64,000 bases of DNA from Planktothrix sp. PCC 11201 (GTDB taxonomy: Bacteria; Cyanobacteriota; Cyanobacteriia; Cyanobacteriales; Microcoleaceae), in NCBI RefSeq assembly GCF_900009135.1, contig NZ_LT797688.1:153428-217427 (forward strand), in the 5' to 3' direction. Both the position numbers and the translations under genes were made by a program. Numbering within the stretch: the stretch's first letter is position 1; every line of letters starts with the position of its first letter. The notes beneath the pieces are model-generated. The model saw nothing but the letters and a program-made list of their open reading frames with translations. It was not told the DNA's origin and made no database searches. Shown here piece by piece: positions 10,039 to 48,783 of this stretch.

Positions 10039-10059
10039 AAAATGCTGACCACGGACTGC

Positions 10060-10087
10060 TAACCACTAACCACTAACTGCTAACTGT
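10060..10087 (+). repeat. Short AACCACT-type tandem repeat
   Basis: Imperfect copies of CTAACCA / CTAACTG fill the last bases before the ylxR start codon, leaving no recognisable Shine-Dalgarno sequence. Confidence 0.6.
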
Positions 10088-10093
10088 CAACCC

Positions 10094-13867: not shown

Positions 13868-13897
13868 GTGCAGGCTTCAACCTCTATTGCTATATAT

Positions 13898-13941
13898 CAG
13901 CCACCTATTTTTAACCCATAGTAGGTGGCTGGTCTGTTTTT
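13898..13941 (+). terminator. Intrinsic terminator of infB
   Basis: A perfect 10-bp stem (CAGCCACCTA at 13898-13907 with TAGGTGGCTG at 13922-13931) is followed by GTCTG and a run of T at 13936-13941. It ends the rimP-infB transcript and touches the last codon of the convergent TspO gene. Confidence 0.88.
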
Positions 13942-14416
13942 AAGCCTCTGCGGGGTTGAGTGGGATCATTGCCCAGGTAGTATAGGTTCCAATTGGACTC
14001 CACAGGACAAAGGGGAGGAGTAAATAGGCTGCGGTTTGAGATACTGGCCAAACGCTTACCATTAACATCAAGCCTAAAATAAAGCCTGTCCCTCCTAATA
14101 TTGTTCCGACCCGTAAACTTTTGGCTTTACACATTACCGGGGTATAGGACAAAATCACTAATTCTAATAATAGGTAAAATCCCATTAATACCCAGGTTTG
14201 GGATATTCCGGGTTCAGCTTCCCAGACTAAAATTGCTGACCAAGCCCCGGCAATAAAAACGATTATCCAAATTAAAGGAATTGCTTTTTCAAAGGTTAAC
14301 CAACTGGGACGGGTTAAACGATTAAACCATCGGATATCATCAGGGGTTAATAGAATATTATTGGCTAAGGCGACTAAAAATACCACTCCTCCAATTATCA
14401 TCCAAGATTTAATCAT
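13940..14416 (-). CDS. tspO: TspO/MBR-family membrane protein
   Basis: The 158-residue protein has five hydrophobic segments and the TspO pattern: RPSWLTFEKAIPLIWIIVFIAGAWSAILVW near 35-65, an aromatic third helix, and LLLPFVLWSPIGTYTTWAMIPLNP at the end. TspO proteins bind tetrapyrroles and other hydrophobic ligands and affect stress responses and pigment metabolism. It is somewhat diverged: the usual Tyr/Gln/Asn-rich 'YxxQLxxN' of helix 3 is replaced by SYTPVMCKA. The start at 14416 places the first helix at once. It is convergent with infB. Confidence 0.75.
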   Translation of the reverse strand: MIKSWMIIGGVVFLVALANNILLTPDDIRWFNRLTRPSWLTFEKAIPLIWIIVFIAGAWSAILVWEAEPGISQTWVLMGFYLLLELVILSYTPVMCKAKSLRVGTILGGTGFILGLMLMVSVWPVSQTAAYLLLPFVLWSPIGTYTTWAMIPLNPAEA

Positions 14417-14502
14417 AATTTTTTACTCTTTTAACCCTATTCAGGTTATTTTAGTGGGTTATTAGTCAAATCTCCCAAAAGCAGGAAAATTGAATCCTAT
14501 CC

Positions 14503-19243: not shown

Positions 19244-22200
19244 ATGTTGAGTTCATCTCCCCTGGTTAGTGTTATTATTCCGGTTTATAATGGCGATCGC
19301 TACCTTAGCCAAGCCATCGATAGTGTTTTGATTCAAACCTACTCAAACTACGAAATTGTTATAGTTGATGATGGCTCAACGGACAATACACCTAAGATCA
19401 TACAACACTACATAGATACACACCGGAACCCCTCTATAATTCGTTATATTGTGCAATCTAATCAAGGAGTTGCAGCTGCTAGAAATCGTGGAATTCAGGA
19501 AGCTAGGGGAAAATTTATTGCTTTACTAGATCAAGATGATGTGTTTTTACCTGAAAAATTAGCCCATCAAGTCGCCTGTTTTGATTCTAACCAAAATGTA
19601 GCAATTGTCAATAGTGGCTGGCGTTTAATTGATCAAAATAATAACGGAATTTCCGATATTGAACCTTGGCATGAGTTACCCGATTTAACCCTAGAAACTT
19701 GGATAAAAAGAACTCCAATTTTACCTAGCTCTTTAATGTTCAGGCAAGAATCTTGGCAGCAAGTTGGAGGATTTGATTCTCGCTTTAATGGAGTCGATGA
19801 TGTTGATTTTATTTGGCGTTTAGCATTACGAGGATATGCAGCCATTTGGCTCCCTGAAATTACCGTTAATTATCGGCAACATCAGCAAACTGTTTCTCAT
19901 CAAAAAGCTAGAGAAAGAGCCAATTTAATAGTAGCACTGCACGATTATTTTTTCAGTCAGCCCAATTTATCCGATGAAATTCTTCAACTCGAAAAACCCG
20001 CTCGATATGAAACTTTAACTTGGATGGCATGGCATTTATATCATACCCATCATCCTCAAGCAATGGCTGAATTTCTCCAGAAATCTTTACTTTATACTCC
20101 TTATACCGTAGCGATTACTATTTCTGATTGGGTACATCGATTCATGGGTTATTGTCAGGGTTATGGTTATGAACTTGATTTAGAAAGTTTCTATAATTTA
20201 CCCGAATGGAAACAACTAATTACGAAAAATATTCCCCAAAACAAACCTAGAGTGAGTGTGATTATTCCTGCTTATAATTGTGATCAATATATTGAACAAT
20301 GTGTAAAAAGTGTTCTCGAACAAACCTATACTAATTATGAAGTTATTGTCATTGATGATGGTTCTCAAGATCGAACTCAACAAATTCTAAAACCTTTTTT
20401 TCCCGTAATTAAATATATTTATCAAGACAATCAAGGAGCAGCAAAAGCCAGAAATCATGGCTGTGAAATAGCGCAAGGAGAATTTTTAGCTTTTTTAGAT
20501 GGAGATGACTTTTTCTTACCTCAAAAATTAGCCGAACAGGTTGCTGCTTTTGATGCTGATCCTAGTATTGATTTTATCCAAAGTGGGTGGTGTATTGTTA
20601 ATCAAAAAGGAATTGTAATGAGTGTCATTAAGCCTTGGGAAAACGCACCGGAATTGAATTTAGAAACGTGGGTTTTACATAAATGTGTACGTCCGAGTGC
20701 CATGATTTTGCGCCGAGAATGGTGGGAAAAAGTGGGAGGATTTGATCATCTTTATCCCCCTACTGAAGACTTAGATTTTGTCTTACGTTTATCCTTAATG
20801 GGATGTAAAACTATTTGGTTAAAAGAAATTCATGCTTGTTACCGTCAACATGACAATAACTTAATGTCGGGAGGATTAAAAGTTATCAAAAATACGGGAA
20901 TTATTATGGATAATTTCTTTAACCATCCCGATCTTCCCGATAAAATTCGTCAGTTACGTCGAAAGGAAAGTTATGATCGCTGGGTGTGGTTAGCTTGGCG
21001 AATGTATCGAGACCATTATCCTCAATTAATGATATATTGTTTAGAGAAATCCCTAGAATATAGTTTTTTCCCTCTGACAGAAACTATTTCACAATGGCTT
21101 GATGCCTTTCAAAATATAGCATCAGACTATGGGGAAAAAATAGATACTTATGATTTAATTCAATCTCAGGAATGGCAATCTATTATCCATAAAATCATGA
21201 ACCCAAAACTTACCCCCCAACCTAAACCAACCTTAACTCCTCCCTTGAATAAACCCCATATTCTGTTAATCAATACTGACGACCCAGGTATTGGGGGGTT
21301 AGCACAATATGATCATTTAATTCTTTGTGAATTAGCAAAATTAGGCTATCGAGTAACGGCCGTTAGACCCAAACACGATAACCCCTTAGTTGAGGAGGAA
21401 AAAGAGTTAGGAATTCAGCAATATTGGTTAGACTATAGCACTAGCCAAGATTTACCTAGAATTCTCAGAAATACCCAAGATGCGGAAGCTCTTTATGATG
21501 AAATTAAACCCGATTTTATTATTTTTAGTGATGGTTGGCCTTACTCCCATTTTGCCGCTAAACAAGTAGCAATTCAGCGCCATATTCCCTATATGATTGC
21601 CTTGGGATTAGCCATGCCCGAACATATTAATTTTACCATGGGAGATGGTATTCCCTACGCCAAAGGGGTATTATATCAATATGGATTAGCCCGGACTTTC
21701 AATACCGCAGCTTACGAACATCTCCAGATTTTACAAGACCAATTTGGCTTACCCAAAGATAAAGGAAATGTAGTCTATTATGGACGATCAGAAAAATATT
21801 TTTCTTCGCCTAATTTAGCCACTCGTCAACGGTTACGGCAAGAAATAGGGATTCCTGAAGATGGGATTATGTGCTTAACTACTGCCAGGTTAGCCCCCAT
21901 TAAAGGACATCGGTTTCAGTTAGAAGCGATCGCTCAATTAAAACACACTTCTATCTGGGAAAAATTATACTTTGTTTGGGCGGGAACAGGAGAGGGAAGT
22001 GATCATGATTTAGAATCCGAATTAAAACAAAAAGTGCAGGAATTAGGAGTTAGCGATCGCGTCATATTCTTAGGACAACGGTGGGATATTCCTGACTGGT
22101 TAGATGCCTGTGATATCTTTATTTTAACCTCCCTAGCAGAAGCCGCTCCCTCCTTTGCAATTATGGAAGCCATGGCAAAAGGATTACCCATTATTGCCTC

Positions 22201-22756
22201 GGCTGCGGGGGGCATTCCCGAAGGTTTAGGAGATACGGGAAAACTCTTAACTGATCCTAATATTGATCCCGAAAAAACGGTTACTGATCTCGTTGAAACT
22301 TTACAAGAATTAGCGATTAATCCTCCGTTACTCTCTAAAATGGGTGTAGCATCTAAACAACGAGCAGAAGAACTATTTAAAGAAGACCGGATGTTAAAAC
22401 AAACCCTAGAAATTATAGAAATTGCTTTAACTTCCCCCGAAGAAAATAGCTTGAGTCATTTACCTTTAACTAAAACTGAAGTAAAATATCTCAATCATCG
22501 TCTCAAATACTCATCACTCCTTTGGAATGCTTGGTATCATTATACCCAAGGAAATCCCTCTCAAATGGTTACCTTTCTCGAACAATCCTTAAAATACTCC
22601 CCCTTTGAATTTGTCACTGAAGCCGTGTTAGAATGGGTAAATGATTTTGTGCGCTTATCCAATTACAGAAACTATCCTTTGGATGCTTCCACCTTAAGTC
22701 AATCCCCTGAATGGAAATATGCAATGGAACGAATTTTAGGGATTGTTAGTCGTTAA
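19244..22756 (+). CDS. Three-domain glycosyltransferase (GT2-GT2-GT4)
   Basis: This 1170-residue protein fuses three catalytic domains. GT2-A covers about 7-240 (SVIIPVYNGDRY, VDDGSTDNT, LDQDD). GT2-B covers about 335-560 (SVIIPAYNCDQY, IDDGSQDRT, LDGDD). A GT4/GT-B domain covers about 669-1060, with HILLINTDDPGIGGLAQYD, RLAPIKGHRFQLEAIAQL and the E-x7-E motif EAAPSFAIMEAMAKG near 965. After each domain comes the same 75-residue helical module ending in 'PEW' (DNA 20000-20223, 20965-21190, 22497-22728). No membrane helices are seen. Three sequential transfers by one chain are plausible (inference). In GT2-A the DXD motif reads DQDD, still acidic. It is followed by a dehydratase that makes GDP-sugars. 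Donor sugars unknown. Confidence 0.93.
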   Translation: MLSSSPLVSVIIPVYNGDRYLSQAIDSVLIQTYSNYEIVIVDDGSTDNTPKIIQHYIDTHRNPSIIRYIVQSNQGVAAARNRGIQEARGKFIALLDQDDVFLPEKLAHQVACFDSNQNVAIVNSGWRLIDQNNNGISDIEPWHELPDLTLETWIKRTPILPSSLMFRQESWQQVGGFDSRFNGVDDVDFIWRLALRGYAAIWLPEITVNYRQHQQTVSHQKARERANLIVALHDYFFSQPNLSDEILQLEKPARYETLTWMAWHLYHTHHPQAMAEFLQKSLLYTPYTVAITISDWVHRFMGYCQGYGYELDLESFYNLPEWKQLITKNIPQNKPRVSVIIPAYNCDQYIEQCVKSVLEQTYTNYEVIVIDDGSQDRTQQILKPFFPVIKYIYQDNQGAAKARNHGCEIAQGEFLAFLDGDDFFLPQKLAEQVAAFDADPSIDFIQSGWCIVNQKGIVMSVIKPWENAPELNLETWVLHKCVRPSAMILRREWWEKVGGFDHLYPPTEDLDFVLRLSLMGCKTIWLKEIHACYRQHDNNLMSGGLKVIKNTGIIMDNFFNHPDLPDKIRQLRRKESYDRWVWLAWRMYRDHYPQLMIYCLEKSLEYSFFPLTETISQWLDAFQNIASDYGEKIDTYDLIQSQEWQSIIHKIMNPKLTPQPKPTLTPPLNKPHILLINTDDPGIGGLAQYDHLILCELAKLGYRVTAVRPKHDNPLVEEEKELGIQQYWLDYSTSQDLPRILRNTQDAEALYDEIKPDFIIFSDGWPYSHFAAKQVAIQRHIPYMIALGLAMPEHINFTMGDGIPYAKGVLYQYGLARTFNTAAYEHLQILQDQFGLPKDKGNVVYYGRSEKYFSSPNLATRQRLRQEIGIPEDGIMCLTTARLAPIKGHRFQLEAIAQLKHTSIWEKLYFVWAGTGEGSDHDLESELKQKVQELGVSDRVIFLGQRWDIPDWLDACDIFILTSLAEAAPSFAIMEAMAKGLPIIASAAGGIPEGLGDTGKLLTDPNIDPEKTVTDLVETLQELAINPPLLSKMGVASKQRAEELFKEDRMLKQTLEIIEIALTSPEENSLSHLPLTKTEVKYLNHRLKYSSLLWNAWYHYTQGNPSQMVTFLEQSLKYSPFEFVTEAVLEWVNDFVRLSNYRNYPLDASTLSQSPEWKYAMERILGIVSR

Positions 22757-25871: not shown

Positions 25872-27992
25872 CTATCTTGGCGAAAGTTCTCTAACAATCT
25901 TGACTATTTCCTTATAAATAACCGACCAATCACAATCATAATCACTGCTGGAATTATCCTGTTGTTTGCTAATAATATAATCCCTAGGTATCCATCGGGC
26001 GGGTATTAAGTTTTCACGAACTGATGGTTTTGTGCATTCTATAGCCCATACTTGATCATAAAAGAAAGTGTTTCCATGTAAAACACCGGGTTTATTGCCA
26101 ATCCATTGTACAGTTGTCAGCCCAGATCCACAAGGTGCCAAGTATAGATCTATGGAATTAAGAAAAATTACTTTTTCATACATTAATTTGCCGATTGTAT
26201 AATATGTCATAATATTGGGCTGAGTCTGTGCGATAATTTTTTCCATAACCGCTTTTTCCTGTGCAATCATAGACTCAGATAAAGCATCTTCGACTTCTCG
26301 ACGCCCCCAACCATCAAAAACTACTCCCAAATTGGGAAACTCCGCCGCTAATTTTTTGATAAGATTAGCATTTCCCTCCACCTGAGATACCCAAGTTCTA
26401 CTACTTCTAATTTGGATACATAAAAGAGGGAAATGTTTTTTAGCCCTTTCCACTTCTGCTAAAAAATCTGGATTTTCAGAACACTTTTTCAGGGAATATT
26501 GAATAACACGATCAGCTAACTCTTGGCGAAGAAATAAGTCATTTACCTGAACAGCAAAATAGTTATTATCTAAAATCGTTTGAAACACCTCGTCAGTATT
26601 AGCTAATTTAGTGATTTTATCACTAGGTATTTCAGGAAAAACACCCTCGACATTAAAGAAATCTTTAGGGCCAACTAAAAATTTTTGTATTTTCTCTAAA
26701 ATATCGTTGGATTGAAGATAAAGAATACCTGATAATTCATTCCAGTAGTAGTGACCAAAATTCTTATTAAATCCTATATCACATACAAGTTTTTTAGGAA
26801 GTTGGTTTTCTATATAAAATTTTACTTTTTCATAACTGCTGACTAGAGAAAATTTTAACCCATTGATAAATTTATCAATTTCATTAGATACTAACCAGTT
26901 AGGCGAAAATTTTATAATTATTTCTTTTTCTGGGAAATAAATACAGATTTTGCCACGACAAGTATTTCCAATTACTAGGTAAAATATTTCCTTTCCTATA
27001 AAGCGGTAAACGTGCATTAATAGCCAATTTTCATAATTAACATAAAATGATTGATTAGACTTGACAGTTTTACCACTAAAAGGGCATACTGAGTAAATAC
27101 AACCTGTTTCTACCATGGCTTTACAACAAGCATTGTTTTTATAAATTGACCATAATTCAGAGACCGTTTCAATATATTTTCTCGAAAGTTTTACTTTGGG
27201 TGTAGGATTAAAACTATTAATATAAATTTCTTCTAAGTTAAGATCGTCTTTTTTTATTAGTTGTAAATTAGCTAATGATATGCCATACTCATTGAGCAAA
27301 TTTTGATGGGATTCCGTTAAATTATTTATATCAATAATTGTATAGTTGCTGTTTTTCTCAAAATAGGCTTCAGCTTCAGCTTTTGTAGGAATTGACTCAG
27401 AGATATCATCAATTTTTCCTAATTGATTTAAGTTTTTCCACAAAATTTCATAAATTGATACTGTGCCAGGGAATTTCTCTCGATCGCGCTTATTATTAAG
27501 TTCCTGGTTATAACTAAATTGCGGGGCTTTCTGGAAAAGCGCGATCGCGTCATCCATTAAATCCTTTTCTGCCAAATACCGACTAAAATCATAATAAACC
27601 ATCGCCTGATCAGGCTCGCGTTGCAACACAGAATCAAAACAAGCAATAACTCGATCAAGTCCCCCTTGCTTAACTAAAACTACACCCCAATTAGGATTTA
27701 ACTCAATGGCTCGATAATAGGCTAAATTTGCCCTATCAATATTGCCCAATTGGGTGTAGGATTGGGCCATACCATAGTAACTAGAGCCATTCGGACTAAT
27801 GCCTATAGCTTTTTGGAAAGACGCGATCGCCTCCTCAAAGCGCCCTAATTTGGCCAAAGTTTCCCCTAAACTATGGTGATACAAATGAAACTTAGGGTTT
27901 TGTTCTATTGCCTGATAGTAATAAGCCAGAGCTTCAGAGAATTGGCCTTTTTGTTTGAGTTCGTTAGCCGTTTGAAAATAGCTAGTAGTCAT
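25872..27992 (-). CDS. TPR protein with unrecognised C-terminal domain, possibly distant glycosyltransferase
   Basis: The 706-residue protein has four TPR units (residues 1-150), a linker, and a 500-residue domain that I cannot assign with confidence. Landmarks are [16 protein letters not shown] near 295-310, [15 protein letters not shown] near 408 and APCGSGL near 617 followed by NKPGV. The same order of motifs is found in the 805-residue protein at 37199-39616. Spacing and text loosely echo GT61 (YHW..., PHGAGL, PGT), so a diverged GT-B glycosyltransferase is the best guess. It is the second gene of an operon, 41 bp after the GT2-GT2 gene. Confidence 0.8.
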
Positions 27993-28033
27993 GGTTTTTG
28001 GTTATTAGCCACTGGCGAAATGGTCTTAATTTA

Positions 28034-30274
28034 TCAGGAATTCATCAGATTTAGTGTCGATTGCTCTAATTGTGATTGGGCTTGTTTCAGTTTTAAGCGC
28101 GATCGATCCAATTCTAACTGCATTTCTTCTGCTGTTTGTTTCCAACTATTCAACTGAGATTTTACCCACTCCTTTTCCGATTGAGTCGCCTCTAATTTAG
28201 CTTGTACCTCCTGAGTTGTGCGTTGCCAAGTTTCCACTTGCACTGATAACCCAGACTTTTCTGCTTGAGTTTGCTGTAATTGTGACTCTTTTTGTACTAC
28301 TTGAGATTGTAGATTCTGTACTTGCTGGGCTAACTCTTTTGCTTCTGCGATAAAAGCCTCTTTTTGCGCCTCTAAAATAGTGGGGTTAGCCTCTGCATAC
28401 GGTTGATATCTGTTAAAAATAATCTCCCTCGTGCGAGTAAAATCTGCTCGGTTATGGCTACTGGTGTTAGTGCCATCATTTCTTTGGGTAAATTCGCAGG
28501 TAGTTTCTTTGATATGGGCGATGTCAAATTTGCGAGATAGCCGAATTATCAAATCCCAATCTTCATGGGTTGATAGGGTTTCATCAAATAAACCCACTTC
28601 ATCTAAGCAGGATTTTTCGTGCATTAGACATAAGTTAGGAGTGCAGTTGCTCACTAAGATTTTGTCCTTGTCAAAGTCTAGGGAGTAGGGCACGCTACGG
28701 TTAATTGTCACATATTCACCATTTTGTTTTTCCTGTTGCGCCATGACAGCATCGGTGTAGGCGATTTTATATTCGCTATTTTCTAGGAATTTTACTAGGG
28801 TTTCGATGTGGTTGGGGTAGTAGTTATCATCGTCATCTAAGTAGGCGATGTATTTACCACGGGCGGCGCGGATGCCAGTGTTACGGGCGGCGGAGCGATC
28901 GAGAGCGCGATCGTGTTTTTTATAGACAATATTACCCTTAGTATTGAGACGCGATATGACTGATTGTACATCAACACCACCATCATTAACTACGATGATT
29001 TCTAATTCCGTGAATGTTTGATTAAGAACACTTTGGATAGCTTGGGCAAGCATTTCGGGGCGGTCTTTTGTGGGTATGATGACGCTAACAAGCGGGCGAC
29101 CTCTGTTAACAGTTGATTGCCCTATTTTGCGATAGGGTAGTGCGTTTAGTTCTGATGGAGAAATAGGCACAGGGATGGAAGTTTTTGGGATGACACCCCG
29201 TTGGGTAATACCATATTCTTCTAGTATCTTTTGTGTTTCCTGTTGTCCGACACTTGAAGAATGTTCTAATCCTTGTGGATTTTCGTAGTACAATCCCAGG
29301 GTTTCTGGAATGCGAGCCAATTTTTCTGTTTTGCCAATTCTTAGCCAAAATTCGTAGTCACCAGCCGATGTAAATTCTGGTTGGAAGTAACCATATTTTT
29401 CATGCAGAGATTTTCTCCACATTGGTTGAGAGCCGATAATACAGCGATTCTCTAATTCGCTGTAGTTAAATGATGGCCAATTCCACTGCCGATCCGCCTT
29501 AGTTTTTTCCCAAGTATCATTAACAGTATTCGTGATTAATTGATCTGGATATACTAGACTAACTTCTGGTTGAGTATCTAGGTAATTTGCCATGATTTCT
29601 AAAGCATCAGGGCGCAGGCGATCGTCCGTATTAGCATTCGTGATGTAATCTCCTCTGGCAATCTTAATAGCTCGGTTCCAACTAGCATAAAGCGTCTCCC
29701 GCTCCAGTGTGCGTTCGTAAATAATATTTGGATATTTGGATTGAAAGTCTCCGATAATTAATTGTTCATTTTGTTCAGAAGCACTGTCAATAACGATAAT
29801 TTCAAGCTCACCTTTTTTGTACAATTCTTGCCCAACTAAATCCTGTAAACAACCACGAATAAATTCTTCAGAGTTGTATGTAGAAACAATAGCTGAAACT
29901 TTGAAGTTAGTTTTAGTTTTAGCCAGTGATGTCTGAGATGAACTGTTGAAGACTCTTTTAGGAGCAGGTAGTTGAGCAGTAGCCCACAGCCATGAATCTG
30001 ATGAATTAAGAGAAACAACATTAAAACTATGTAGTGATCGCATTCTCACCGGATAAAACTTAGCGGGTTCAATAAATTCACTTTCATATATCCGCTCAAT
30101 CGTATAACTCAATTTAGGAGTATCTGGAGGAATCCCATCTTTCATTTTTCGATAATCGCGATCGTGACTAATTACCCCTTTATTAGTATAAGCGATCCAT
30201 TGGCCCCGATATATTTTTAATTGGGGACGATTGGCTTGGTACCAATCATTAGTTGTGGCATATTCTGGTTCCAT
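28034..30274 (-). CDS. Double GT2 glycosyltransferase with C-terminal coiled coil
   Basis: This 746-residue protein starts at ATG 30274, ten bases after AAGGAG. Residues about 8-45 (YRGQWIAYTNKGVISHDRDY) resemble the small DUF5678-type module. GT2-A (about 125-370) has VSAIVSTYNSEEF and NANTDDR. GT2-B (about 393-610) has SVIIPTKDRPEM, VNDGG and YLDDDDN. Residues 640-745 form a Gln/Glu-rich coiled coil (QNLQSQVVQKESQLQQTQAE), probably for oligomerisation or attachment to partners. Both catalytic domains keep acidic metal-binding residues. It is the first gene of an operon with 25872-27992. Acceptors unknown; synthesis of a surface glycan is inferred. Confidence 0.92.
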   Translation of the reverse strand: MEPEYATTNDWYQANRPQLKIYRGQWIAYTNKGVISHDRDYRKMKDGIPPDTPKLSYTIERIYESEFIEPAKFYPVRMRSLHSFNVVSLNSSDSWLWATAQLPAPKRVFNSSSQTSLAKTKTNFKVSAIVSTYNSEEFIRGCLQDLVGQELYKKGELEIIVIDSASEQNEQLIIGDFQSKYPNIIYERTLERETLYASWNRAIKIARGDYITNANTDDRLRPDALEIMANYLDTQPEVSLVYPDQLITNTVNDTWEKTKADRQWNWPSFNYSELENRCIIGSQPMWRKSLHEKYGYFQPEFTSAGDYEFWLRIGKTEKLARIPETLGLYYENPQGLEHSSSVGQQETQKILEEYGITQRGVIPKTSIPVPISPSELNALPYRKIGQSTVNRGRPLVSVIIPTKDRPEMLAQAIQSVLNQTFTELEIIVVNDGGVDVQSVISRLNTKGNIVYKKHDRALDRSAARNTGIRAARGKYIAYLDDDDNYYPNHIETLVKFLENSEYKIAYTDAVMAQQEKQNGEYVTINRSVPYSLDFDKDKILVSNCTPNLCLMHEKSCLDEVGLFDETLSTHEDWDLIIRLSRKFDIAHIKETTCEFTQRNDGTNTSSHNRADFTRTREIIFNRYQPYAEANPTILEAQKEAFIAEAKELAQQVQNLQSQVVQKESQLQQTQAEKSGLSVQVETWQRTTQEVQAKLEATQSEKEWVKSQLNSWKQTAEEMQLELDRSRLKLKQAQSQLEQSTLNLMNS

Positions 30275-30344
30275 TATTAATTCTCTCCTTTTGAGAAATA
30301 TCCACCAAGACTACTTTGAGATTCTAAGGTAAGATTAGCACATC

Positions 30345-30434
30345 ATCAGGTTGAGTTTCCAACTAAGGGATAAAAACGGTAATTCTTTTTGATTAGGCTT
30401 TGATTATTAACTGTAATGCTGTAGAATCAAAAGA
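30345..30434 (+). promoter_or_regulatory. Upstream region shared with 23907-24096
   Basis: The stretch TTGAGTTTCCAACTAAGG to GAATCAAAAG is closely similar to the region before the 24109 remnant, but without the 94-bp insertion. It contains TTTGAT (30399-30404), 17 bases, TAGAAT (30422-30427), a likely promoter for the 30473 gene. Confidence 0.5.
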
Positions 30435-30472
30435 CAAGTTTTGACAGACAACTCAGGATTTAGCTGCCAGAA

Positions 30473-30836
30473 ATGAAAAAAGTGATTGACATTCAAGAAG
30501 TAATTAATGTTCCTGTTATGGAATCTCAAGGGTTACTGGCGTTTAATCTGGATGCACCGGAAACCGGAACCCAAATTATTGATCAGCAAGAGCAGTTAAC
30601 AATATATGGGATTTTACGGGATCAGAGTCTGGTTAAGATGGCAGAAGTTATGGTTAAATTGGGATCGGACACCTCTATGGCGGAGGTTCCCTTGCCTCAA
30701 CAGGATGCTGAATCAGGGGTAGAGGGCATAAAGTTGAAGTTACATACAACGGATTCAAGCGGATTTGGAGCGTTCTAAGGTGTTTGTGCAGGCTGTAAAA
30801 ACAGATTTGCAGAACCGTGAACAACGGAAATCTTAG
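30473..30836 (+). pseudogene. Truncated, frameshifted gene for a beta-domain/coiled-coil protein
   Basis: The open frame 30473-30778 encodes 101 residues (MKKVIDIQEVINVPVMESQ...) and ends at TAA. In the +1 frame the DNA continues to look coding from 30738 to 30836: IQADLERSKVFVQAVKTDLQ, an amphipathic helix of the kind found in neighbouring coiled-coil glycosyltransferases. The N-terminal part (FNLDAPETG, then LTIYGILRD) resembles the beta-sandwich region that precedes glycosyltransferase or methyltransferase domains in related cyanobacterial proteins (from memory). A frameshift between 30738 and 30776 and loss of the rest are inferred. A partial twin lies at 24109-24192. It could still be a short expressed protein. 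Confidence 0.6.
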
Positions 30837-30975
30837 AACCAGGGAACTCTTGCACAGGTTAATCGTCCTTCTGCCAATCGTACCTATCGATTTCTAGGTT
30901 GAAACTGTGATAGGATTCCTTTTGTTGAGACAAATCCCAGAGCAGCAACCCCTATTTTTTGAGAGTGTGGAATTT

Positions 30976-31581
30976 ATGACCGTGACAGCCTTTCAACAAG
31001 CGAATCAACTGTTAAGAGAAGGAAAGTTAGAGGCGGCAGTGGTCGTTTATCGGCAGGCGATTGATCAGAATCCACAGTTTTATGGGGCTTATCAGAATTT
31101 AGGAGAAACCTTGGGGAAGTTGGGGCGGTTAGATCAGGCGGTTGAGATGTATCAAAAAGCAATTGAGTTGAAACCGTCGGCGGGTTGGTTGCAGAAGGAA
31201 TTGGGGTTGTTGTTGGAGAGCTTGAAGCAAAATCATATAAATGATATAGATGATTTTTTCAATCTTGTGAATGTCTCCCTCCCTACTGATCCAGATTGGT
31301 TGGTTAACTTGCTTAGTTATTACGAAAAGTTTTATCGAAACTACGCTATAAGCAATCAAGTAGAACATCAAGATCAGTTATCAAGTTTTAATCTAACTAA
31401 ATTTCTTGAAGCCGAGTTTAAAAAAGATCCATCCCGCTTTGATATAACTTTAGCATTAGCATTAAATAATCTAAATCGAGGCAACCGAAACCGGGGGATA
31501 CAACTCTTAAAGAGAGTGGCGGCTTCTGGATATCGGGAGCGCTTGCCGGCTAAAAAGTGTCTTGATTTAATTATCCAATAG
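30976..31581 (+). CDS. Small TPR protein
   Basis: I start this protein at ATG 30976 (MTVTAFQQANQLLREGK), which matches the N-termini of other TPR proteins here; the frame is open from 30907 but the added 23 residues look unrelated. The 201-residue protein has three TPR units (residues 5-80), then a less regular helical region. No catalytic motif is visible. It ends 10 bp before the large glycosyltransferase gene and is probably translated with it, so it may be its scaffold (inference). The C-terminal half (RFDITLALALNNLNRGN...) may be another degenerate repeat. Confidence 0.75.
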   Translation: MTVTAFQQANQLLREGKLEAAVVVYRQAIDQNPQFYGAYQNLGETLGKLGRLDQAVEMYQKAIELKPSAGWLQKELGLLLESLKQNHINDIDDFFNLVNVSLPTDPDWLVNLLSYYEKFYRNYAISNQVEHQDQLSSFNLTKFLEAEFKKDPSRFDITLALALNNLNRGNRNRGIQLLKRVAASGYRERLPAKKCLDLIIQ

Positions 31582-31591
31582 AGCAAATATT

Positions 31592-34500
31592 ATGAAAACA
31601 TCTTTGATTGTAATTACTACCCTTGGCGCAAAAACTGCATCCATACCTCAGCCGATTCTTTCAGCGTTTAAAAAGCATGCTCAAAATTCACATATAGCAG
31701 AAGTTCACGTTATCTCAGAAGATAACTTAACCGTGCTAGAAAATTTGTGCAAAGATATCAGTTATGAATTTAAAAAATTTAAGTACATTAATGTAGAACA
31801 TCGCCCAACATTCTCAATGCTCATTAGTTACGCAAATCAGCTAATTGTTAGTGAGAACTGTATATGCGCTCTTATGAATGCAGATATAAGTTTTGGTGGT
31901 GATGATGATGTTGCACTATGTATATCGAGTCTTAATAGTATTAGCCAGGAAGATGGTAAGGTAGTTTATGCCTTGACTCGTCGAGATTATATAAAATCTG
32001 CTTGGCAACTCACTTATGAACCTACAGGATTACCTAATAATATTTCTGCAGATTGTTGGATATTTTCAGATCTAATTAATTTACCTCAAGCTAATTTCTA
32101 TTCAATGGGAGAAGTGCATTGTGATTTGATGCTGGCTTACGATTTGGTGACATCAGGTTTTCAGGTATATAATCCATGTCTTGATATAAAAATACATCAC
32201 AACGAATCAGATGTGAAAACACATGAGTTTTACAAAGAGCAAAATCAAAAGGTATCAAATCAAGATCGGTTAGGTCTACATTGCGTACGGCATAGAAATC
32301 AGCCCTTTCAATGTTTTGGAATACCCTGGGTTTCTTCTCAATGGCTAAAAACAGGGTATCATCCTCCTGCCTACGAAATGTATTCTAGGAGACGAAAAAA
32401 ACTTTATATAACCCTCTTAGAGCCATTGAATGAACTATTGATTTACTCGTTGTTTTCTATAGAATTGTTTGCCAAAGAACATGATTTTGACTTGTTTTTT
32501 GTCACAGATTTCGACCTTGAAAATTTATTTTCAAAGTTGAGACCTATAATATTAGTTAACCGAAATGTTTATTTCGCAAAACTCAATAACACAGTAGATG
32601 AATTCATTTTCCAACTGGTTAAAGGAAATCAGTGGAGTTTTAATAGATTAGCTATTGTTTCCGACCCATCGCGACTTACCAGTTCAATAGCAGATTACAC
32701 GGAATTCATACTCTTGGATGTGCGTAGCTATGTAATACAGAATCCAAGTGACAGTGAAATTCTTTGCCCTGAAATTACTGGAGATTACAAGTCGTTACTG
32801 GTTCAAAGATATGAAAATTTTGTAGATCAATCATTTGTTAATCGAAGTAAAAATCGAGAAAACAAATGCTTGTGTACATTAATTACCTCCGTTTATCAAT
32901 CAGACAATTTTATAAAAAGTTTTTTTGCTAATTGTGAACAACTAATCGGCTACTCAGACACAATTGATCATTTCGCATTTATTTCTACCCTTTCAGATTA
33001 TGAAGCTGATTGTATTAACGATTGGCTTTACAGAAATAGAAATGCAATCCTGTTCTGGAACAAGGAAGATCCTGGTCTTTACGAGTGTTGGAATATTGGC
33101 GTTCGTTTGGCACAAACTGAATTTGTATCAAATGCTAACGTAGATGATCTTAGGCATCAAAAGCACGTCGTGGAGCTTGTCGCAGATTTACGCAATAATC
33201 CTCATCTATGCGTGGCATCATCGGCACTTGTTCCCTTTGAAACCTATGTAACTAATATCGAAAAAATCGATTCTTCTCAACCATGGTACGCAGACGAATC
33301 TGGTGAATTTGGTTTCACCAGTTTGGCTCACCTAGAAATAATGGAAAACGGGATATATAAACTTAAACCCCATAACCTACCTCATTGTATGCCGATCTGG
33401 AGGAGACAACTCCATGACATTTATGGATTTTTTGATGAGAAACGTTACGGAACCTATGCTGACTGGGCTTTTTGGCTTAAGGTCACTAAAGCTGGAGAGC
33501 GTGGATATTTAAACGCTGCACCCTTGTCTTATTATCACATCAATTTGACTTCCCATAATAGACGAGCTAATAATTTAGAGCAACTCCATCGTGAAATAGA
33601 AATTGAGTATGTCGAAAGTTTTTATTTTAGGTTAAAGATAAATAACATTGAGGAGTCAAGCTATTCAATTTTTAGAGTTAATCATGGGAACCAAACGCCA
33701 TTCAAACCAAAACTGAATTTATGGGGCTTGACGCACAATTTTGGGAAGCATCGTCACTCATTCAATAAATTAATTGATTCGTTACTCCCCCTTGATGTTA
33801 GGGAAGATGGAATCAAATTTATTCCATTTATCGAGCGGTATTTTGTATGGGGAGATCACGAAGGAGAAGCGGCATCAACTAATCCCCAACCGTTAGACAA
33901 AGAATGGATAGGGGTAATCCACGTTCCCTTTGATTCGCCCGTCTGGTTCGAGCCATATAATTCTCCAGAGTATATATTTCAAACTCAACTATGGATTGAC
34001 TCTTTACCATTTTGTAAAGGACTTATTTGTCTTACTCAAGACTTGCAAAAAGACCTGCAAGAATGGTATCCTGACCTACCCACTTTGGCAGTAAATTTTC
34101 CGACTGAACTAAATCATGTAAAGTTTTTTGATTTCACGGCATATCAGAAATACCCGCGTGTTGTTCAAGTAGGAGACTGGTTACGAAAACTTCAGTCTAT
34201 TTACCAGTTACATACTGAAAGCCATCAGAAGTTAATTTTAATTAAGCCTTGTACTAGAGAATATATGAGAAGAGAAATTGAAGTTTTCGGTGACTATCGA
34301 AATGATAGTGTAACTGAGCTTGAATTTGTGAGTAATCAGGAGTATGATTCGCTACTATCAAGCTCAGTAGTACTTTGTTTGTTGTATGCAACAGCAGCTA
34401 ACAACGTAGTGATTGAATGTATTGCACGGGGTACACCAATTTTAATTAATCCTTTACCAAGTGTTGTCGAATATCTAGGTGAAAACTATCCTTTATATGT

Positions 34501-34654
34501 TAAAGATGTTCACGAGGCAGAAATAGTCTTGAACAAAGAAAACCAAATCAAAGCAGCTTCGGATTATCTTTTAAAACGTCGAAATGATATTGATTTGTCT
34601 TTTGAAGGTTGGCTTAAAAAAATAGCAGAATCTAATTTTTATAAGGGTTTATAG
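31592..34654 (+). CDS. Large multidomain glycosyltransferase-like protein
   Basis: The 1020-residue protein has at least three parts. Residues 1-260 begin KTSLIVITTLGAKTAS and contain ALMNADISFGGDDD, recalling a GT-A-like fold. Residues about 425-690 are GT2-like (CLCTLITSVYQSDNF, ECWNIGVRLAQTEFVSNANVDD, PIWRRQLHDIYGFFDE). Residues about 695-1020 look like a GT-B glycosyltransferase (IGVIHVPFDSPVWF, then GLICLTQDLQKDL, VLCLLYATAANNVVIECIARGTPILINPLPS). No GCGATCGC octamer is seen inside and the text differs from the TPR-GT61 genes, which suggests a different history. It follows a TPR gene by 10 bp. Substrates unknown. Confidence 0.8.
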   Translation: MKTSLIVITTLGAKTASIPQPILSAFKKHAQNSHIAEVHVISEDNLTVLENLCKDISYEFKKFKYINVEHRPTFSMLISYANQLIVSENCICALMNADISFGGDDDVALCISSLNSISQEDGKVVYALTRRDYIKSAWQLTYEPTGLPNNISADCWIFSDLINLPQANFYSMGEVHCDLMLAYDLVTSGFQVYNPCLDIKIHHNESDVKTHEFYKEQNQKVSNQDRLGLHCVRHRNQPFQCFGIPWVSSQWLKTGYHPPAYEMYSRRRKKLYITLLEPLNELLIYSLFSIELFAKEHDFDLFFVTDFDLENLFSKLRPIILVNRNVYFAKLNNTVDEFIFQLVKGNQWSFNRLAIVSDPSRLTSSIADYTEFILLDVRSYVIQNPSDSEILCPEITGDYKSLLVQRYENFVDQSFVNRSKNRENKCLCTLITSVYQSDNFIKSFFANCEQLIGYSDTIDHFAFISTLSDYEADCINDWLYRNRNAILFWNKEDPGLYECWNIGVRLAQTEFVSNANVDDLRHQKHVVELVADLRNNPHLCVASSALVPFETYVTNIEKIDSSQPWYADESGEFGFTSLAHLEIMENGIYKLKPHNLPHCMPIWRRQLHDIYGFFDEKRYGTYADWAFWLKVTKAGERGYLNAAPLSYYHINLTSHNRRANNLEQLHREIEIEYVESFYFRLKINNIEESSYSIFRVNHGNQTPFKPKLNLWGLTHNFGKHRHSFNKLIDSLLPLDVREDGIKFIPFIERYFVWGDHEGEAASTNPQPLDKEWIGVIHVPFDSPVWFEPYNSPEYIFQTQLWIDSLPFCKGLICLTQDLQKDLQEWYPDLPTLAVNFPTELNHVKFFDFTAYQKYPRVVQVGDWLRKLQSIYQLHTESHQKLILIKPCTREYMRREIEVFGDYRNDSVTELEFVSNQEYDSLLSSSVVLCLLYATAANNVVIECIARGTPILINPLPSVVEYLGENYPLYVKDVHEAEIVLNKENQIKAASDYLLKRRNDIDLSFEGWLKKIAESNFYKGL

Positions 34655-34798
34655 ATACATCTGAAAGATTAATAATTGGTTTAAGAAAGCGAGATGCTGT
34701 AAGATAACTTCATATTTTAGCAGAGAAAACCAAGTAAAAAAAAGGTGAAGTTAGAGTAGACGATCATAGCTTATTAACGGGCTATTGAGTCAAATCCT

Positions 34799-35518
34799 CT
34801 AACTTTGAAGAAATGTAACCCACTCGGTAGCTTGAAAGTTGCCATCTGACCAGGGAGAAAAATCTAATTTTCTTTTGAAAGATTGGCTTAAGAAAACCAA
34901 ATCTACTTGAGTTAGGTTGTCTTTGTAATAACAAAAGTCAACTATATCCCAGAGAACAAATCCATTATTATGTAAGAAAAAAAACCTTTCTGAAAATATG
35001 TTTAAATGAGAAACTTCTACATTTAAAGGAGTTTCTACTATTACACAGAATGTTTTCGCTAGAGTCTCAGTAGAACCTTCTAAAATTTGTAGTTCAACTC
35101 CATCAACATCTATTTTAAGAATAAAAGGTTCAATAAGGGTAGTTTCTCTTTGTATTTCAGGAATAATACTATCTAGCTTTCTAACTGTAATTGGTCGGGT
35201 ATTTAATGATTCTTCATCGGAAATATTACTGTGTGATACTTGGCCACTTCCAAATAATGAGCGGGTTGACAAAAAGGAATCTTGATTGCAATTTGAAAGT
35301 GCAATTTCAAAAATTTGATGATCAATATTTACATAGTTAGACCTTATAGATGGGTAGTATTCAGAAACAGGTTCAAACAATAGGTGCTTGGATTCACAGA
35401 ACACTGTTTTTAGTTCTTTTGTTTCATACTGAACACCAATATCAATTATTGTTGGATTAAAGTCAATATGATCTTTGATATATTGCAAGGTTGACAATTT
35501 GGTTGGCAGTCTAGTCAT
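34799..35518 (-). CDS. FkbM-family methyltransferase
   Basis: The 239-residue protein has the FkbM layout: TIIDIGVQYETKE (SAM-binding start), LLFEPVSEYYPSIRSNY, VRKLDSIIPE and FILKIDVDGVELQILEGS near 150-167. FkbM enzymes are SAM-dependent O-methyltransferases, often acting on sugars in glycan clusters. It is somewhat diverged (GVQYE instead of GANxG). It lies between the 1020-residue glycosyltransferase (convergent) and an insertion sequence, and may once have been linked with the TPR gene at 37199, on the same strand beyond the IS. Confidence 0.85.
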   Translation of the reverse strand: MTRLPTKLSTLQYIKDHIDFNPTIIDIGVQYETKELKTVFCESKHLLFEPVSEYYPSIRSNYVNIDHQIFEIALSNCNQDSFLSTRSLFGSGQVSHSNISDEESLNTRPITVRKLDSIIPEIQRETTLIEPFILKIDVDGVELQILEGSTETLAKTFCVIVETPLNVEVSHLNIFSERFFFLHNNGFVLWDIVDFCYYKDNLTQVDLVFLSQSFKRKLDFSPWSDGNFQATEWVTFLQS

Positions 35519-35637
35519 AATGGCAGTCTCCTATTAGGATTCGATCAGGATTATAACATGATTTGTGCAAAATAGCGAGGAAACCAGGTTTCAATCACCT
35601 AGTATGCTAAAAATATAGTTAAAGACTCAATTAAGTA

Positions 35638-35658
35638 GGTGGGCGAGAATATCCCACC
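35638..35658. other. Hairpin next to the insertion sequence
   Basis: GGTGGG (35638-35643) pairs with CCCACC (35653-35658). AAGTAGGTGGGCG around 35633-35645 is also matched in inverted orientation by CGCCTACCTACTT just right of the insertion sequence (37184-37196), so both probably belong to the pre-insertion intergenic structure. Confidence 0.4.
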
Positions 35659-35721
35659 ATCCCAGTATGGATGAAAGCTATTTACAGCAAGGGTTTGCCC
35701 TATCTACATAGTTAGGTTTAA

Positions 35722-37175
35722 CCCTCTTCTGTCAGTCTCCGAAACCAACAAGTAATAAAAAGTAGAGTTATCCATTGGGAAAATAAGATTGAAATTGATT
35801 AATATTCTGAATTAATTTATGAAACCCAAGCAATAAATAACGATCAGGAAAAACATCTAACCACGGGGCAATCAACCACAATATAATAGTAGGCTGAATT
35901 ATTAAACGCAAATTATTTAAAACATTTTTCCATCCCTCTTTATGATTCCATTGTTGGTGATTCGAGCAATCTGTGGTGTTTTTTTTGCTCTCCGATTCTC
36001 TGGGACTTCCTTGACTTAAAGACCGGAAAACTTCGGAGTTGAAACTAATCATTAAATACACACAGAAAATGATTTCCCACCATTTTTCTATATCTTGAAA
36101 ATCCGTCAACCGATAGTCAGTCCAACCCAGTTCTTGTTTACATTGTCGAAATCCATATTCCACCCATGTTCTTAACCCGTATAAATTACCTAATGTCTTT
36201 TTTATCTGGTTCCTATTTTCTGTTAAATTTGTCATGACAAATGAAGTTGAGGCTTCTGGCATTGTTTCTGGATCTGTGGTGATTTCCCAATAGGTTCTCG
36301 GACTTCTTTTTCCAAATATAATTTCTCTAATATATCGGGTTTCTGATTCTCCATTGCTAAAAACTCTCTCAAATTTACACCATTTGTTTGCTCTAACTTT
36401 CTCCTCGCTTGACATCCAGACTCCATGATTACTTCTTATTGCCAGCACCCAAGGTAATCCAAATTTATCTAATGTACTGATAAACGAACTACTTTCACCA
36501 TAAAGGCTATCTGCTAATACCAATTCAATTTGAAATCCCAGTTCAACCAACTCTGTTAGGATTTCTGATGCGATTTCAATCTTAGTTTTGTAGACATCTC
36601 CTTCTTTTAATGTTCCTTTGGGTTTAAATACTCTAAACACTAAAGGAAAAGTTATATTTTTATAAACACCGTAAGCATTAACTGATACTATTCCCCGATC
36701 TATTTTGCCCACACTTCCCAAGTATTGTCGGGCTACATAGTCGGTTTTTTTACCCTTTCTCCTATCTCCTGTTTCATCAATTATTACTATAATCTTCTCT
36801 TCTTTCAATGCTTTTAGAGTTCGAGCTAATCTTCTTTCCTTTAATTCCCTTGCTGACCAAGGCGAATTGGCTAAAAAATGATGGAGTGATTGCGGCGACC
36901 TAATTCCTACTATTTTAGCAATTTCCGGTAAAGATTTTCTCGGAATTGGTGAGATGATTCCTAGATGTAAGTATTTAAAACATTCGTAACTTCTAACTTC
37001 AGGGAATAGGTCTTTATAACCTTGACAATATTCATCAATCACTGAAACTGTTGGTTGTGCATCTCTGGCTAAATGTTTGATAATCTGTAATTCTACATCC
37101 ATTACCCTATCCCCCTTCTAGCTACCCATGTGGTTTATTTTCTAATTTTACTTCTAGGAGACTGACAGAAGAGGG
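35722..37175 (-). mobile_element. IS701-family insertion sequence
   Basis: The 1454-bp element has perfect 19-bp terminal inverted repeats (CCCTCTTCTGTCAGTCTCC at 35722-35740, its complement at 37157-37175). It is flanked by TTAA on both sides (35718-35721, 37176-37179), matching the YTAR four-base target duplication described for the IS701 family. It contains one full-length transposase gene. It looks intact and recent. Confidence 0.93.
35768..37102 (-). CDS. IS701-family DDE transposase
   Basis: The 444-residue transposase is complete. The DDE residues are recognisable: IVIIDETGDRRKGKKTDYVARQ (first D, about 110), ELVLADSLYGE (second D, about 195) and WVEYGFRQCKQELGW (E, about 330). ETGDRRKGKKT and ARQYLGSVGKIDRGIVSVNAYG are typical of IS701-like transposases from cyanobacteria. 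It catalyses cut-and-paste movement of the element. No frameshift or stop interrupts it, so it may be active. Confidence 0.95.
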   Translation of the reverse strand: MDVELQIIKHLARDAQPTVSVIDEYCQGYKDLFPEVRSYECFKYLHLGIISPIPRKSLPEIAKIVGIRSPQSLHHFLANSPWSARELKERRLARTLKALKEEKIIVIIDETGDRRKGKKTDYVARQYLGSVGKIDRGIVSVNAYGVYKNITFPLVFRVFKPKGTLKEGDVYKTKIEIASEILTELVELGFQIELVLADSLYGESSSFISTLDKFGLPWVLAIRSNHGVWMSSEEKVRANKWCKFERVFSNGESETRYIREIIFGKRSPRTYWEITTDPETMPEASTSFVMTNLTENRNQIKKTLGNLYGLRTWVEYGFRQCKQELGWTDYRLTDFQDIEKWWEIIFCVYLMISFNSEVFRSLSQGSPRESESKKNTTDCSNHQQWNHKEGWKNVLNNLRLIIQPTIILWLIAPWLDVFPDRYLLLGFHKLIQNINQFQSYFPNG

Positions 37176-37198
37176 TTAATTACGCCTACCTACTTAAA

Positions 37199-39616
37199 CT
37201 AACTGAATAATCTATTTTTATCTTTAGCATCAGCTAACGATTGCACAAGTTTCAGGGCTATATCATAAATCACGCGCCAATCATAATCAAAATCGCTATC
37301 CCAACTTCCAGGACTCGTTTCATTAAAAATATTTTCAATTGGAACCAGAGTAGGCATGATAAAATTCTCTCTGTCTTCGAACTGCTTGATTACACCTGTT
37401 TCATGAAAAGCTGTATTCATAAACTGCACTCCTGGCTTATTGGCAATCAGTGGAAAAAGTATCCCTGAAGCAGTCGGAGCGATATAAAAATCTATAGCAG
37501 TAGCAAAAAGAATAGTTTCATACACTGAACTACCAACAGTGCTGTATATCGGAATTTCTGATGGGAGTAGAGAACAAATATTCTTGACAACTTCTTGATC
37601 TTTCTCAATTTGCCTTTGTTCATTGGGATCTTCTACGCCTTCCACAGTAGACCATCCATCAAACAAAACTGCTAAATCAGGATAATCCAAATAAAATTGT
37701 TTAATTAAATTTGCTGTTCCCTGGATTTGAGATAACCATGATCTTTGATTAGTGCGAACTTGGAACAAGATAAGCGGAAAATGACTTTTAGCTTTTTCTA
37801 ACTGTTGCAAAAAATCTTGAGAGCATTTTTTCCGACCCGCTGGATAAATTCTGTTTTGCACAAAATCTTCAGTCAGTATGAAATCAGAGGGAGTGAAGCA
37901 AAAATAATTACCTTTTAAAAGAAATTTAAAAAGATCATAATTATCAGAATCTTTTGCTGAAGAAAAATTCACTATTTTATCTGAAGAAATTTCTGGAAAA
38001 AGTAATTCTATCTTAAAATAATCCCAAGTTCCCGCCAAAAAAGTATCTATTTTATGTAGTCTTTTTGTTTGTTGTATGTAGTTTAATCCACCGAAATCAA
38101 TCCACAAATTATGAGATATATTACTAAAAACACCCAAGATAACTGCTGTTTTTCTCGCCGATTCGGATAAAAGGTAAGATTCAAAATCTTTCCAAAAACT
38201 GACTGCGTATGCTTTAAATGTATTAAAGATCAGGTAATCAAAAGTATTCATAATTGCAGAATGCCTCAGAATAATTATAGCTTCTAATTTGGGAAAGTAA
38301 AGGAAATTTTTTTGCCAGAAGAAAGGAGAACACATAATATAAAATACCTGTTCTCCAACAAAGCGATATATATTTCTTTGCTCACGCCTATTTTGCGGGC
38401 AAGAACCAGAACGTCGGCATTGTAAAGAAAAAGATTGATTTGAACGAAGAACTCTACCACTAGTAGGACAAATTACATAAAGATAACCAGTTTCTGCTAT
38501 AGTTTGCTGAAAATATCGATCAATATGTTCACGATTAGTAGCGATAGATGGTTCTTCTTCGGAAAAGTTGATGGGTTGTTCACAATTAAAACTATTAATA
38601 TAAATTTGCTCTAAAGCTGCACTACTTTGTCCCATTAACTGTAAATATTCTATTGATAATCCTGAAGATAACAAAAAGTTGTTATCTTCTTGAGTTAACT
38701 CCCATATCTTGATCACTCTATATTGGCTAGTTTGACTAAAGTAAGCTTCTGCTACTTCTGGCTGAATTTCAATTTGATAGAGTGGATCATTTTCATCAAA
38801 GGAACTTAAGGCATTTAAAGATTTCCAGATAGTCTCATAAATTTCTGGTTCTGTTTTTTGTTTCCCAGCAGCAGAGAAGCAAGCAACAGCTTGATCTATC
38901 AAGCCTTGTTGAGATATAGCTATTGCTAAATCATGATATAGTTGATTTCGGTAAGATTCAGTTTCAATCACTTCTTGATAAGATGAAATAAGCTTATTTA
39001 TCATTCCATTGCGAGCTAAAGCAATCCCTAAAGTCAAATAAGTATTAGTTAAAATATCCGGCTCTTTTAAGAGTTTTTCATAAAAATTAATTGCGATTTC
39101 ATTAGATATCAAGTTATTGGTATCTAATGCTTGACAATAAGTGGCAATAGCTTCTTGCAAATTTTCCGACTCAGCTAATGTTTCAGCACGTTCTAACAAA
39201 GCATCTAACTCAGTTCCGTGGACTTCCCGTAAGCTTCTGTATACTTGTAAACAATTGGGATTTACTTTCAATAGATGCTCATAGGTGGCGATCGCTTTTT
39301 GACTCCTAACTTGGCTTTTTAGCTGATTAATGAAATCGATAAATTCTGGTGATTCTTCAATTAATGAGGGGTCTAGACCAAAAGCTTTGTACCAAGCCTC
39401 AGCAGCTTTATCAAATCTATTTAACTTATACCACAGGTCTGCTAACTTTTTATAAGCAATGGCCAAGTTGGGATTGATTCTAAGAGCTAGTCGATAATGA
39501 GCAATTGCTGATGGCCACTGTTTTTTTTGTTCATATAATGAGCCTAAGTTGATATAAAAATCAATTAACTCAGCATTTGTGCTGATAGCGTTATCATTGG
39601 ATTTCTCTAACTTCAT
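37199..39616 (-). CDS. TPR protein with the same unrecognised C-terminal domain as 25872-27992
   Basis: The 805-residue protein has about two clear and several weaker TPR units in residues 14-270, then the unrecognised domain. Matching landmarks are VICPTSGRVLRSNQSF near 378, NLWIDFGGLNYIQ near 500, WDYFKIELLFPEISSDKIVNF near 525 and IAPTASGILFPLIANKPGV near 712. Where the relative has PCGSG, and GT61 has PHGAG, this protein has PTASG; and HYYW is replaced by HNLW. It may therefore be a catalytically altered relative. It lies just right of the IS701 element. Function unknown; distant GT-B glycosyltransferase is a guess. Confidence 0.78.
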   Translation of the reverse strand: MKLEKSNDNAISTNAELIDFYINLGSLYEQKKQWPSAIAHYRLALRINPNLAIAYKKLADLWYKLNRFDKAAEAWYKAFGLDPSLIEESPEFIDFINQLKSQVRSQKAIATYEHLLKVNPNCLQVYRSLREVHGTELDALLERAETLAESENLQEAIATYCQALDTNNLISNEIAINFYEKLLKEPDILTNTYLTLGIALARNGMINKLISSYQEVIETESYRNQLYHDLAIAISQQGLIDQAVACFSAAGKQKTEPEIYETIWKSLNALSSFDENDPLYQIEIQPEVAEAYFSQTSQYRVIKIWELTQEDNNFLLSSGLSIEYLQLMGQSSAALEQIYINSFNCEQPINFSEEEPSIATNREHIDRYFQQTIAETGYLYVICPTSGRVLRSNQSFSLQCRRSGSCPQNRREQRNIYRFVGEQVFYIMCSPFFWQKNFLYFPKLEAIIILRHSAIMNTFDYLIFNTFKAYAVSFWKDFESYLLSESARKTAVILGVFSNISHNLWIDFGGLNYIQQTKRLHKIDTFLAGTWDYFKIELLFPEISSDKIVNFSSAKDSDNYDLFKFLLKGNYFCFTPSDFILTEDFVQNRIYPAGRKKCSQDFLQQLEKAKSHFPLILFQVRTNQRSWLSQIQGTANLIKQFYLDYPDLAVLFDGWSTVEGVEDPNEQRQIEKDQEVVKNICSLLPSEIPIYSTVGSSVYETILFATAIDFYIAPTASGILFPLIANKPGVQFMNTAFHETGVIKQFEDRENFIMPTLVPIENIFNETSPGSWDSDFDYDWRVIYDIALKLVQSLADAKDKNRLFS

Positions 39617-48690: not shown

Positions 48691-48783
48691 TTTTATGAAT
48701 CTCCTTGACGGGGTGATCATCCGACGGTTGATCTTGAAATCGGCTGTTTAACCTTAACTCCCCATCATAACTCAAAGCCATAC

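Follow-up and report, generated by a model that had tools for sequence, protein, structure and literature searches.

What is the C-terminal domain shared by two proteins of a cyanobacterial glycan gene cluster, which matches none of the family models searched? The question arises in a stretch of 64,000 nucleotides from Planktothrix sp. PCC 11201 (contig NZ_LT797688.1, positions 153,428 to 217,427; hereafter, the window), where two genes, A and B, each encode tetratricopeptide repeats (TPR) followed by the domain. We propose, with a probability of roughly 0.7, that the domain is a glycosyltransferase (GT) family of its own with the GT-B fold, lying between families GT61 and GT9, fused to TPR repeats in Oscillatoriales, and acting on surface glycans or in protein glycosylation. 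The family is unnamed, and its sequences and predicted structure suggest that it transfers sugars. The proposal builds on homology across the family, a confident GT-B model, conserved residues, profile links to both GT61 and GT9, purifying selection, and a setting among glycan genes. In window positions, the two genes comprise:

25872..27992, minus strand: gene A, an open reading frame (ORF) of 706 residues, with TPR repeats and the new domain
25875..27392, minus strand: new domain of A as modeled, 506 residues (model residue 1 is protein residue 201)
27045..27086, minus strand: hallmark hairpin motif of A, from a six-frame pattern search
37199..39616, minus strand: gene B, an ORF of 805 residues, with TPR repeats and the new domain
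37202..38794, minus strand: new domain of B
38429..38470, minus strand: hallmark motif of B, CPTSGRVLRSNQSF, from the same search

Both ORFs are open and intact, with the lengths and coordinates that an earlier inspection of the DNA by itself (the sequence-only reading) had given, and the common C-terminal region that it described is real. According to Pfam, the N-terminal parts are TPR repeats (in A, the best stretches lie within residues 6-101), and the new domain makes up the C-terminal 500 residues or so. BLASTP aligns the full-length proteins, with their TPR repeats, over 739 columns at 31% identity (321 bits, E = 8e-103); the domains are 36% identical. The proposed hallmark, CP(F/T)SG(K/R)xxxSNQSF, is present in both, and a search of all six reading frames of the window for CP.SG....SNQSF gave these two occurrences and no other.

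With the domain of A as the query, we found the shared region in 20 of 59 genomes, including the window's own, and several carry two or three nearby copies; the domain is therefore more than a chance resemblance. Across the phylum as a whole it is uncommon: in a phylum-wide sample, 11 of 292 genomes have it, counting the window's own. By tblastn, the domain of A matched two plasmid records and nothing in the phage collection. When the species-genome collection was scanned by a pattern-based method, alignment A2 (which omits L017, L021, L029, and L030, which have stops or are fragments, as well as L020 and L001/L002, window copies) gave 39 loci, 34 of them under cyanobacterial names. The other five are from Desulfovibrionaceae, Rubritepida, Silvania, Methylovulum, and an uncultured member of Rhodospirillales. 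Alignment A3 includes 37 of these loci (L054 is partial and L056 has an internal stop) and has 39 rows: 31 near rows (A and B of the window plus 29 cyanobacterial loci) and 8 outlying rows (L062-L069). "Outlying" means 25% identity or less to A and is a label rather than a clade; in the tree, L062, L064, and L069 are scattered on long branches. Profiles of the near and outlying rows align with a score of 465 over 395 columns, so they form a single family. We also observed a broken extra copy with four stops (G027:C37:151849-152226) beside two intact copies in the nearest relative.

Is this a known family under another name? Searches of Pfam, NCBIfam, and PHROGs with the domain gave no convincing match, nor did a profile search of the PDB (best E = 0.53), which bears out the view that the domain belongs to no recognized family among the models searched. 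In particular, none of the 25 members of A2 matched PF04577 (GT61) at E ≤ 1; it was absent from the 22 families found for each of A and B at that cutoff and from the matches listed for a set of 10 proteins. Similarly, PF01075 (GT9) was absent among the families at E ≤ 1 for A, B, and the 25 A2 members. A literature search, judged by titles and the openings of abstracts, found no description of the domain, which is not proof that it is unpublished.

The fold points to a GT. The model of the domain of A is a confident GT-B structure, with the lobes starting near model residue 199; the sequence-only reading had named a structure unrelated to GT-B as evidence against its proposal. The nearest listed fold to the family model is a GT9 heptosyltransferase, and in a viral structure library all matches were remote ones of the GT-B type.

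Profile-profile comparison with hhalign links the family to GT61 in both lobes. Against A4, a profile of 21 cyanobacterial GT61 domains, residues 199-263 align with the YHW region (score 50.3, E = 2e-5 for a single comparison) and residues 370-438 align, colinearly, with the PHGxGL region (37.0); in 60 column shuffles, no score exceeded 24.5. A second GT61 profile (A5, from the window and viral contigs) gave 37.0 and 35.7, and a 45-sequence profile that includes proteobacterial members gave 46.7 and 32.6, versus a shuffle maximum of 17.0. The GT61-like motif spacing that had been noticed by eye thus has a counterpart in colinear segments. Among the five family profiles tried, GT61 was the best match for the cyanobacterial members, which scored 43 to 50 with four profiles containing cyanobacterial GT61 and 34 with a mainly viral one.

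The donor lobe also matches a diverse GT9 profile (16 sequences), with scores of 43.2 for the whole family (A3) and 54.1 (E = 4e-6, again for a single comparison) for the outlying members; a narrow cyanobacterial GT9 profile (2.0 effective sequences, or Neff) gave just 23.1. That GT9 should be both the nearest fold and the donor-lobe match of the outlying members had not been foreseen. The GT61 and GT9 profiles do not match each other (16-21), and because each matches the family, the family has separate links to both. Profiles for GT41 (Neff 2.8; score 16.5) and GT4 (15.6) stayed at the shuffle level. The proposal of a new GT family holds as far as the GT-B-like model, the lack of a match among the family models searched, and the motif kinship to GT61 are concerned, and the transferase activity is a prediction.

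A sugar-nucleotide epimerase with the GT-B fold (UDP-GlcNAc 2-epimerase/NeuC-like) instead of a transferase seems highly improbable: the score against Epimerase_2 was 19.3, under the shuffle maximum of 20.2 (the profile was narrow, with Neff 2.0); tandem copies and TPR fusions beside GT61 and GT2 proteins would suit transferases better; and genome G000 already has an Epimerase_2 protein.

Which residues might form the active site? The relevant motifs are:

26751..26762, minus strand: NFGH of A; its His, a proposed catalytic base, falls on the invariant His of GT61 in the alignment
26382..26408, minus strand: two-Arg motif of A, which also has the near-invariant Trp and Gln (donor-phosphate role proposed by analogy)
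26121..26135, minus strand: PCGSG of A, aligned by hhalign with PHGSG/PHGAG of GT61
38111..38122, minus strand: NISH of B, which keeps N-x-x-H
37727..37756, minus strand: RTNQRSWLSQ of B, which keeps both Arg, the Trp, and the Gln
37463..37477, minus strand: PTASG variant of B

In model numbering, His214 is present in all 39 rows of A3, and hhalign places it on the invariant GT61 His. One study describes that His (H248 of EOGT, H166 of POMGNT2) as invariant and proposes it as the base (PMC13123520). Asn211 (27 of 31 near rows) falls, in the comparison with A5, on the Asn three residues ahead of the GT61 His. Arg329 is in all 31 near rows, and residue 332 is R or K in all 39; these are residues 529 and 532 of A, three apart, and near-invariant Trp and Gln follow. 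The same study has the Asn and two Arg touching the phosphates of UDP in EOGT and POMGNT2, and proteobacterial GT61 proteins retaining both Arg and not the Asn (PMC13123520). The Arg pair of the family may be the GT61 pair; we matched them by eye, with no hhalign segment over them. In the hairpin motif, the Cys is conserved in 29 of the 31 near rows and the Gly in all 31.

Catalysis and its stereochemistry, the donor, the acceptor, and the role of the TPR part are our inferences. The domain is most likely a metal-independent, inverting GT of surface-glycan or protein glycosylation. The nucleotide-sugar donor would sit in the C-terminal Rossmann lobe, where Arg329, Arg332, and Asn211 would hold its phosphates without metal. 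His214 lies in the loop that follows strand 1 of the N-terminal lobe; it would act as the base on the acceptor and so give inverting transfer, and the TPR repeats may hold the acceptor or partner enzymes. A sugar-binding domain, the other option of the sequence-only reading, is less likely because a set of residues resembling an active site is conserved.

Several results weigh against a distinct transferase family between GT61 and GT9. The hhalign E-values are those of single comparisons. Each GT61 match consists of two local segments; a third A4 hit (28.5) is not colinear with the others; and a global run against A4 scored just 11.3. Seven proteobacterial GT61 proteins alone gave just 21.0. 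The outlying members score just 20-29 with GT61, and the near members just 27.6 with the diverse GT9 profile (best of 30 shuffles, 17.5), so the known family that is resembled is not the same for near and outlying members. The 50 entries that VIA-align listed for the family model do not include POMGNT2, and Foldseek TM-scores by query length were low among the matches listed (0.18-0.33). As for the active site, Asn211 is lost in all 8 outlying rows (replaced by Arg in 5), and Arg329 is lost in 5 of the 8, with the second Arg kept in all 8. The Asn was found, by eye, in just 1 of the 21 A4 rows; since bacterial GT61 proteins mostly lack it, Asn211 is weaker evidence than His214 and may be a coincidence. 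The His of PHGxGL, invariant in the 21 A4 domains, is in 3 of 31 near rows and 1 of 8 outlying rows. Finally, the catalytic role is predicted from sequence and a model.

In a rival reading, the domain would be just a divergent branch of GT61 that escapes the short PF04577 model of Pfam. GT61 gives the cyanobacterial members their best profile match, and does so in both lobes; the His is invariant, as in GT61 (according to PMC13123520); TPR fusion and gene neighborhood are shared with genuine GT61 proteins; and some proteobacterial PF04577 proteins have NYGHF- or FGHF-type motifs. Still, we consider this unlikely. The evidence supports a GT-B family that lacks features by which GT61 and GT9 are each defined and yet is detectably related to both.

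Might B, or the whole family, be inactive? The sequence-only reading noted the change from PCGSG in A to PTASG in B, which is there, and suggested that one member might have lost activity. The first changed position (Cys in A) is variable across the family; the change of Gly to Ala is rare, with 2 of the 31 near rows departing from Gly. B keeps N-x-x-H, both Arg, the Trp, and the Gln; its nearest relative in A3 (L051) is 61% identical; and the ratio of nonsynonymous to synonymous substitution rates (dN/dS) for this one pair is about 0.24, at dS = 1.1. For A, dN/dS is about 0.32 versus L031, 0.37 versus L032, and 0.19 versus L033. Both genes are under purifying selection, and its sequence gives no sign that B is dead. 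Given the retained motif residues, the close relative, and the low dN/dS, loss of activity in B is not supported. More broadly, the domain might be a noncatalytic pseudo-transferase that binds glycans or nucleotides and serves as a scaffold for TPR complexes. PTASG in B, the loss of Arg329 in outlying rows, and one member fused to a GT29-like segment (possibly the catalytic part) would fit, but the universal His214 and R or K at 332 and the purifying selection on A (three pairs) and B make it quite improbable, although conservation alone is no proof of catalysis.

The outlying members may have another donor site, as Asn211 has become Arg in 5 of 8 rows and the first Arg is lost in 5 of 8. Separately, the Desulfovibrionaceae genome of L062 has three neighboring copies of the domain (5968-7884, minus strand; 9464-11248, plus strand; 12939-14861, minus strand) in which, by eye, CPxCG replaces CPxSG and another Cys comes later, which would fit a hairpin that is a metal-binding knuckle and has lost this character in cyanobacteria.

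What might the outlying members do? Copies on E. coli and Enterobacter plasmids lie inside capsule-type operons with annotated export genes. These and the Silvania copy adjoin genes of the acylneuraminate-cytidylyltransferase type and of the inositol-monophosphatase and NeuB families. The E. coli plasmid member (L225, 6744-8567) is annotated "hypothetical protein" and was found, over at least 80% of its length, in 3 of 5,426 E. coli genomes, always on a plasmid. In a cyanobacterium (L226, 8850-11399, minus strand), a short GT29 match (51 of 272 model positions, E = 1.3e-13) precedes the domain in a single fusion protein, and NeuB-family, cytidylyltransferase-type, and inositol-monophosphatase-family genes come after the fusion. 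Around L063 lie genes for a GT29-matching TPR protein, an HMGL-like aldolase, a cytidylyltransferase, and an HAD phosphatase. About 6 kb from L064 is a protein that we take, from similarity, to have a cytidylyltransferase-like N terminus and a GT29-like C terminus; L062 presumably has SpsF-like and HAD genes nearby, on the same grounds. No such neighbors were matched at L065, L067, L068, or L069 (some loci are short on one side) or at five further outlying loci (L228-L232, of which L232 is a weak member); we left out a sixth, L233, which appears to be the contig of L065. Overall, 7 of 16 outlying loci have such neighbors, and three of the seven are closely similar enterobacterial operons. We tentatively suggest that, within a family linking GT61 and GT9, the outlying branch is a partner GT, sometimes fused to GT29, in the assembly of glycans containing CMP-nonulosonate-derived (sialic-acid-like) sugars in cyanobacteria, in Rubritepida, and on enterobacterial capsule-type plasmids.

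We rejected a CMP-sugar donor as a general rule for the window's branch. It is unlikely for most of that branch because 12 of the 20 domain-bearing genomes have no PF02348 match (E ≤ 0.001). Also, tblastn with NeuA-, NeuB-, KdsB-, HMGL-, HAD-, phosphatase-, and GT29-type queries found none in the near-member loci examined. The one exception to the absence of such genes is a PF02348 gene in G033, about 4.6 kb from a broken domain copy.

The window itself is a glycan gene cluster, with GT61, GT2, and GT2-GT4 proteins, a GDP-mannose 4,6-dehydratase-like gene, and FkbM methyltransferases. The four GT61 proteins are over the PF04577 cutoff and have TPR-like repeats by eye:

13-2505 and 2536-5388, plus strand: two GT61 proteins with TPR-like repeats
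14503-16434 and 16440-18956, minus strand: the other two, also with TPR-like repeats

Of the 14 domain-bearing genomes covered by both searches, at least 7 have GT61 genes no more than 25 kb from the domain. One ORF with GT2 and GT4 domains, followed by the dehydratase-like gene, occupies 19244-22756 (plus strand), and 43585-48720 (minus strand) encodes an nSTAND1 NTPase with a large WD40 array (1,711 residues). A DDE-type transposase ORF (PF13546/PF01609; 35768-37102, minus strand) adjoins gene B at a distance of 96 bases, so a mobile element has reached the cluster.

A family now annotated as TPR or hypothetical proteins would become recognizable across cyanobacteria and in some proteobacteria, and the capsule-type operons would gain a candidate transferase for a gene annotated only as a hypothetical protein. 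GT61 contains POMGNT2 and EOGT, and mutations in both cause human disorders; a concrete link in sequence and fold between GT61 and the GT9 heptosyltransferases would open the question of how the GT61 active site arose to testing.

How does the domain compare with known systems? GT29 and CMP-nonulosonate clusters come to mind because GT29-like, NeuA-type, or NeuB-type genes are fused to some outlying members or lie next to them, but the domain itself is not GT29, and 9 of 16 outlying loci and the near-member loci examined showed no such neighbors. Like GT41 (OGT, SPINDLY), it is a GT-B domain fused to TPR repeats, but the catalytic domains have no profile similarity. It differs from GT9 (PF01075; the ADP-heptose:lipopolysaccharide heptosyltransferases WaaC/WaaF, and TibC) in its lack of a PF01075 match and of the Asp of the GT9 D-S/T-G motif, with no D at the aligned column in the 39 rows; GT9 presumably uses an Asp in the N-terminal lobe where the domain has His. 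It differs from GT61 (PF04577; POMGNT2, EOGT, and cyanobacterial TPR-GT61 proteins) in lacking a PF04577 match and the His of the HG motif, in an Arg pair that is 3 apart instead of 4-6, with Trp and Gln conserved after the second Arg, and in having GT9, not POMGNT2, as the nearest listed fold. With GT61 it shares the GT-B fold, an N-lobe His that aligns with the one invariant in GT61, a pair of donor-lobe Arg (equated by eye), a GSG turn aligned with HGxG, fusion to TPR repeats, and a place in the same gene cluster.
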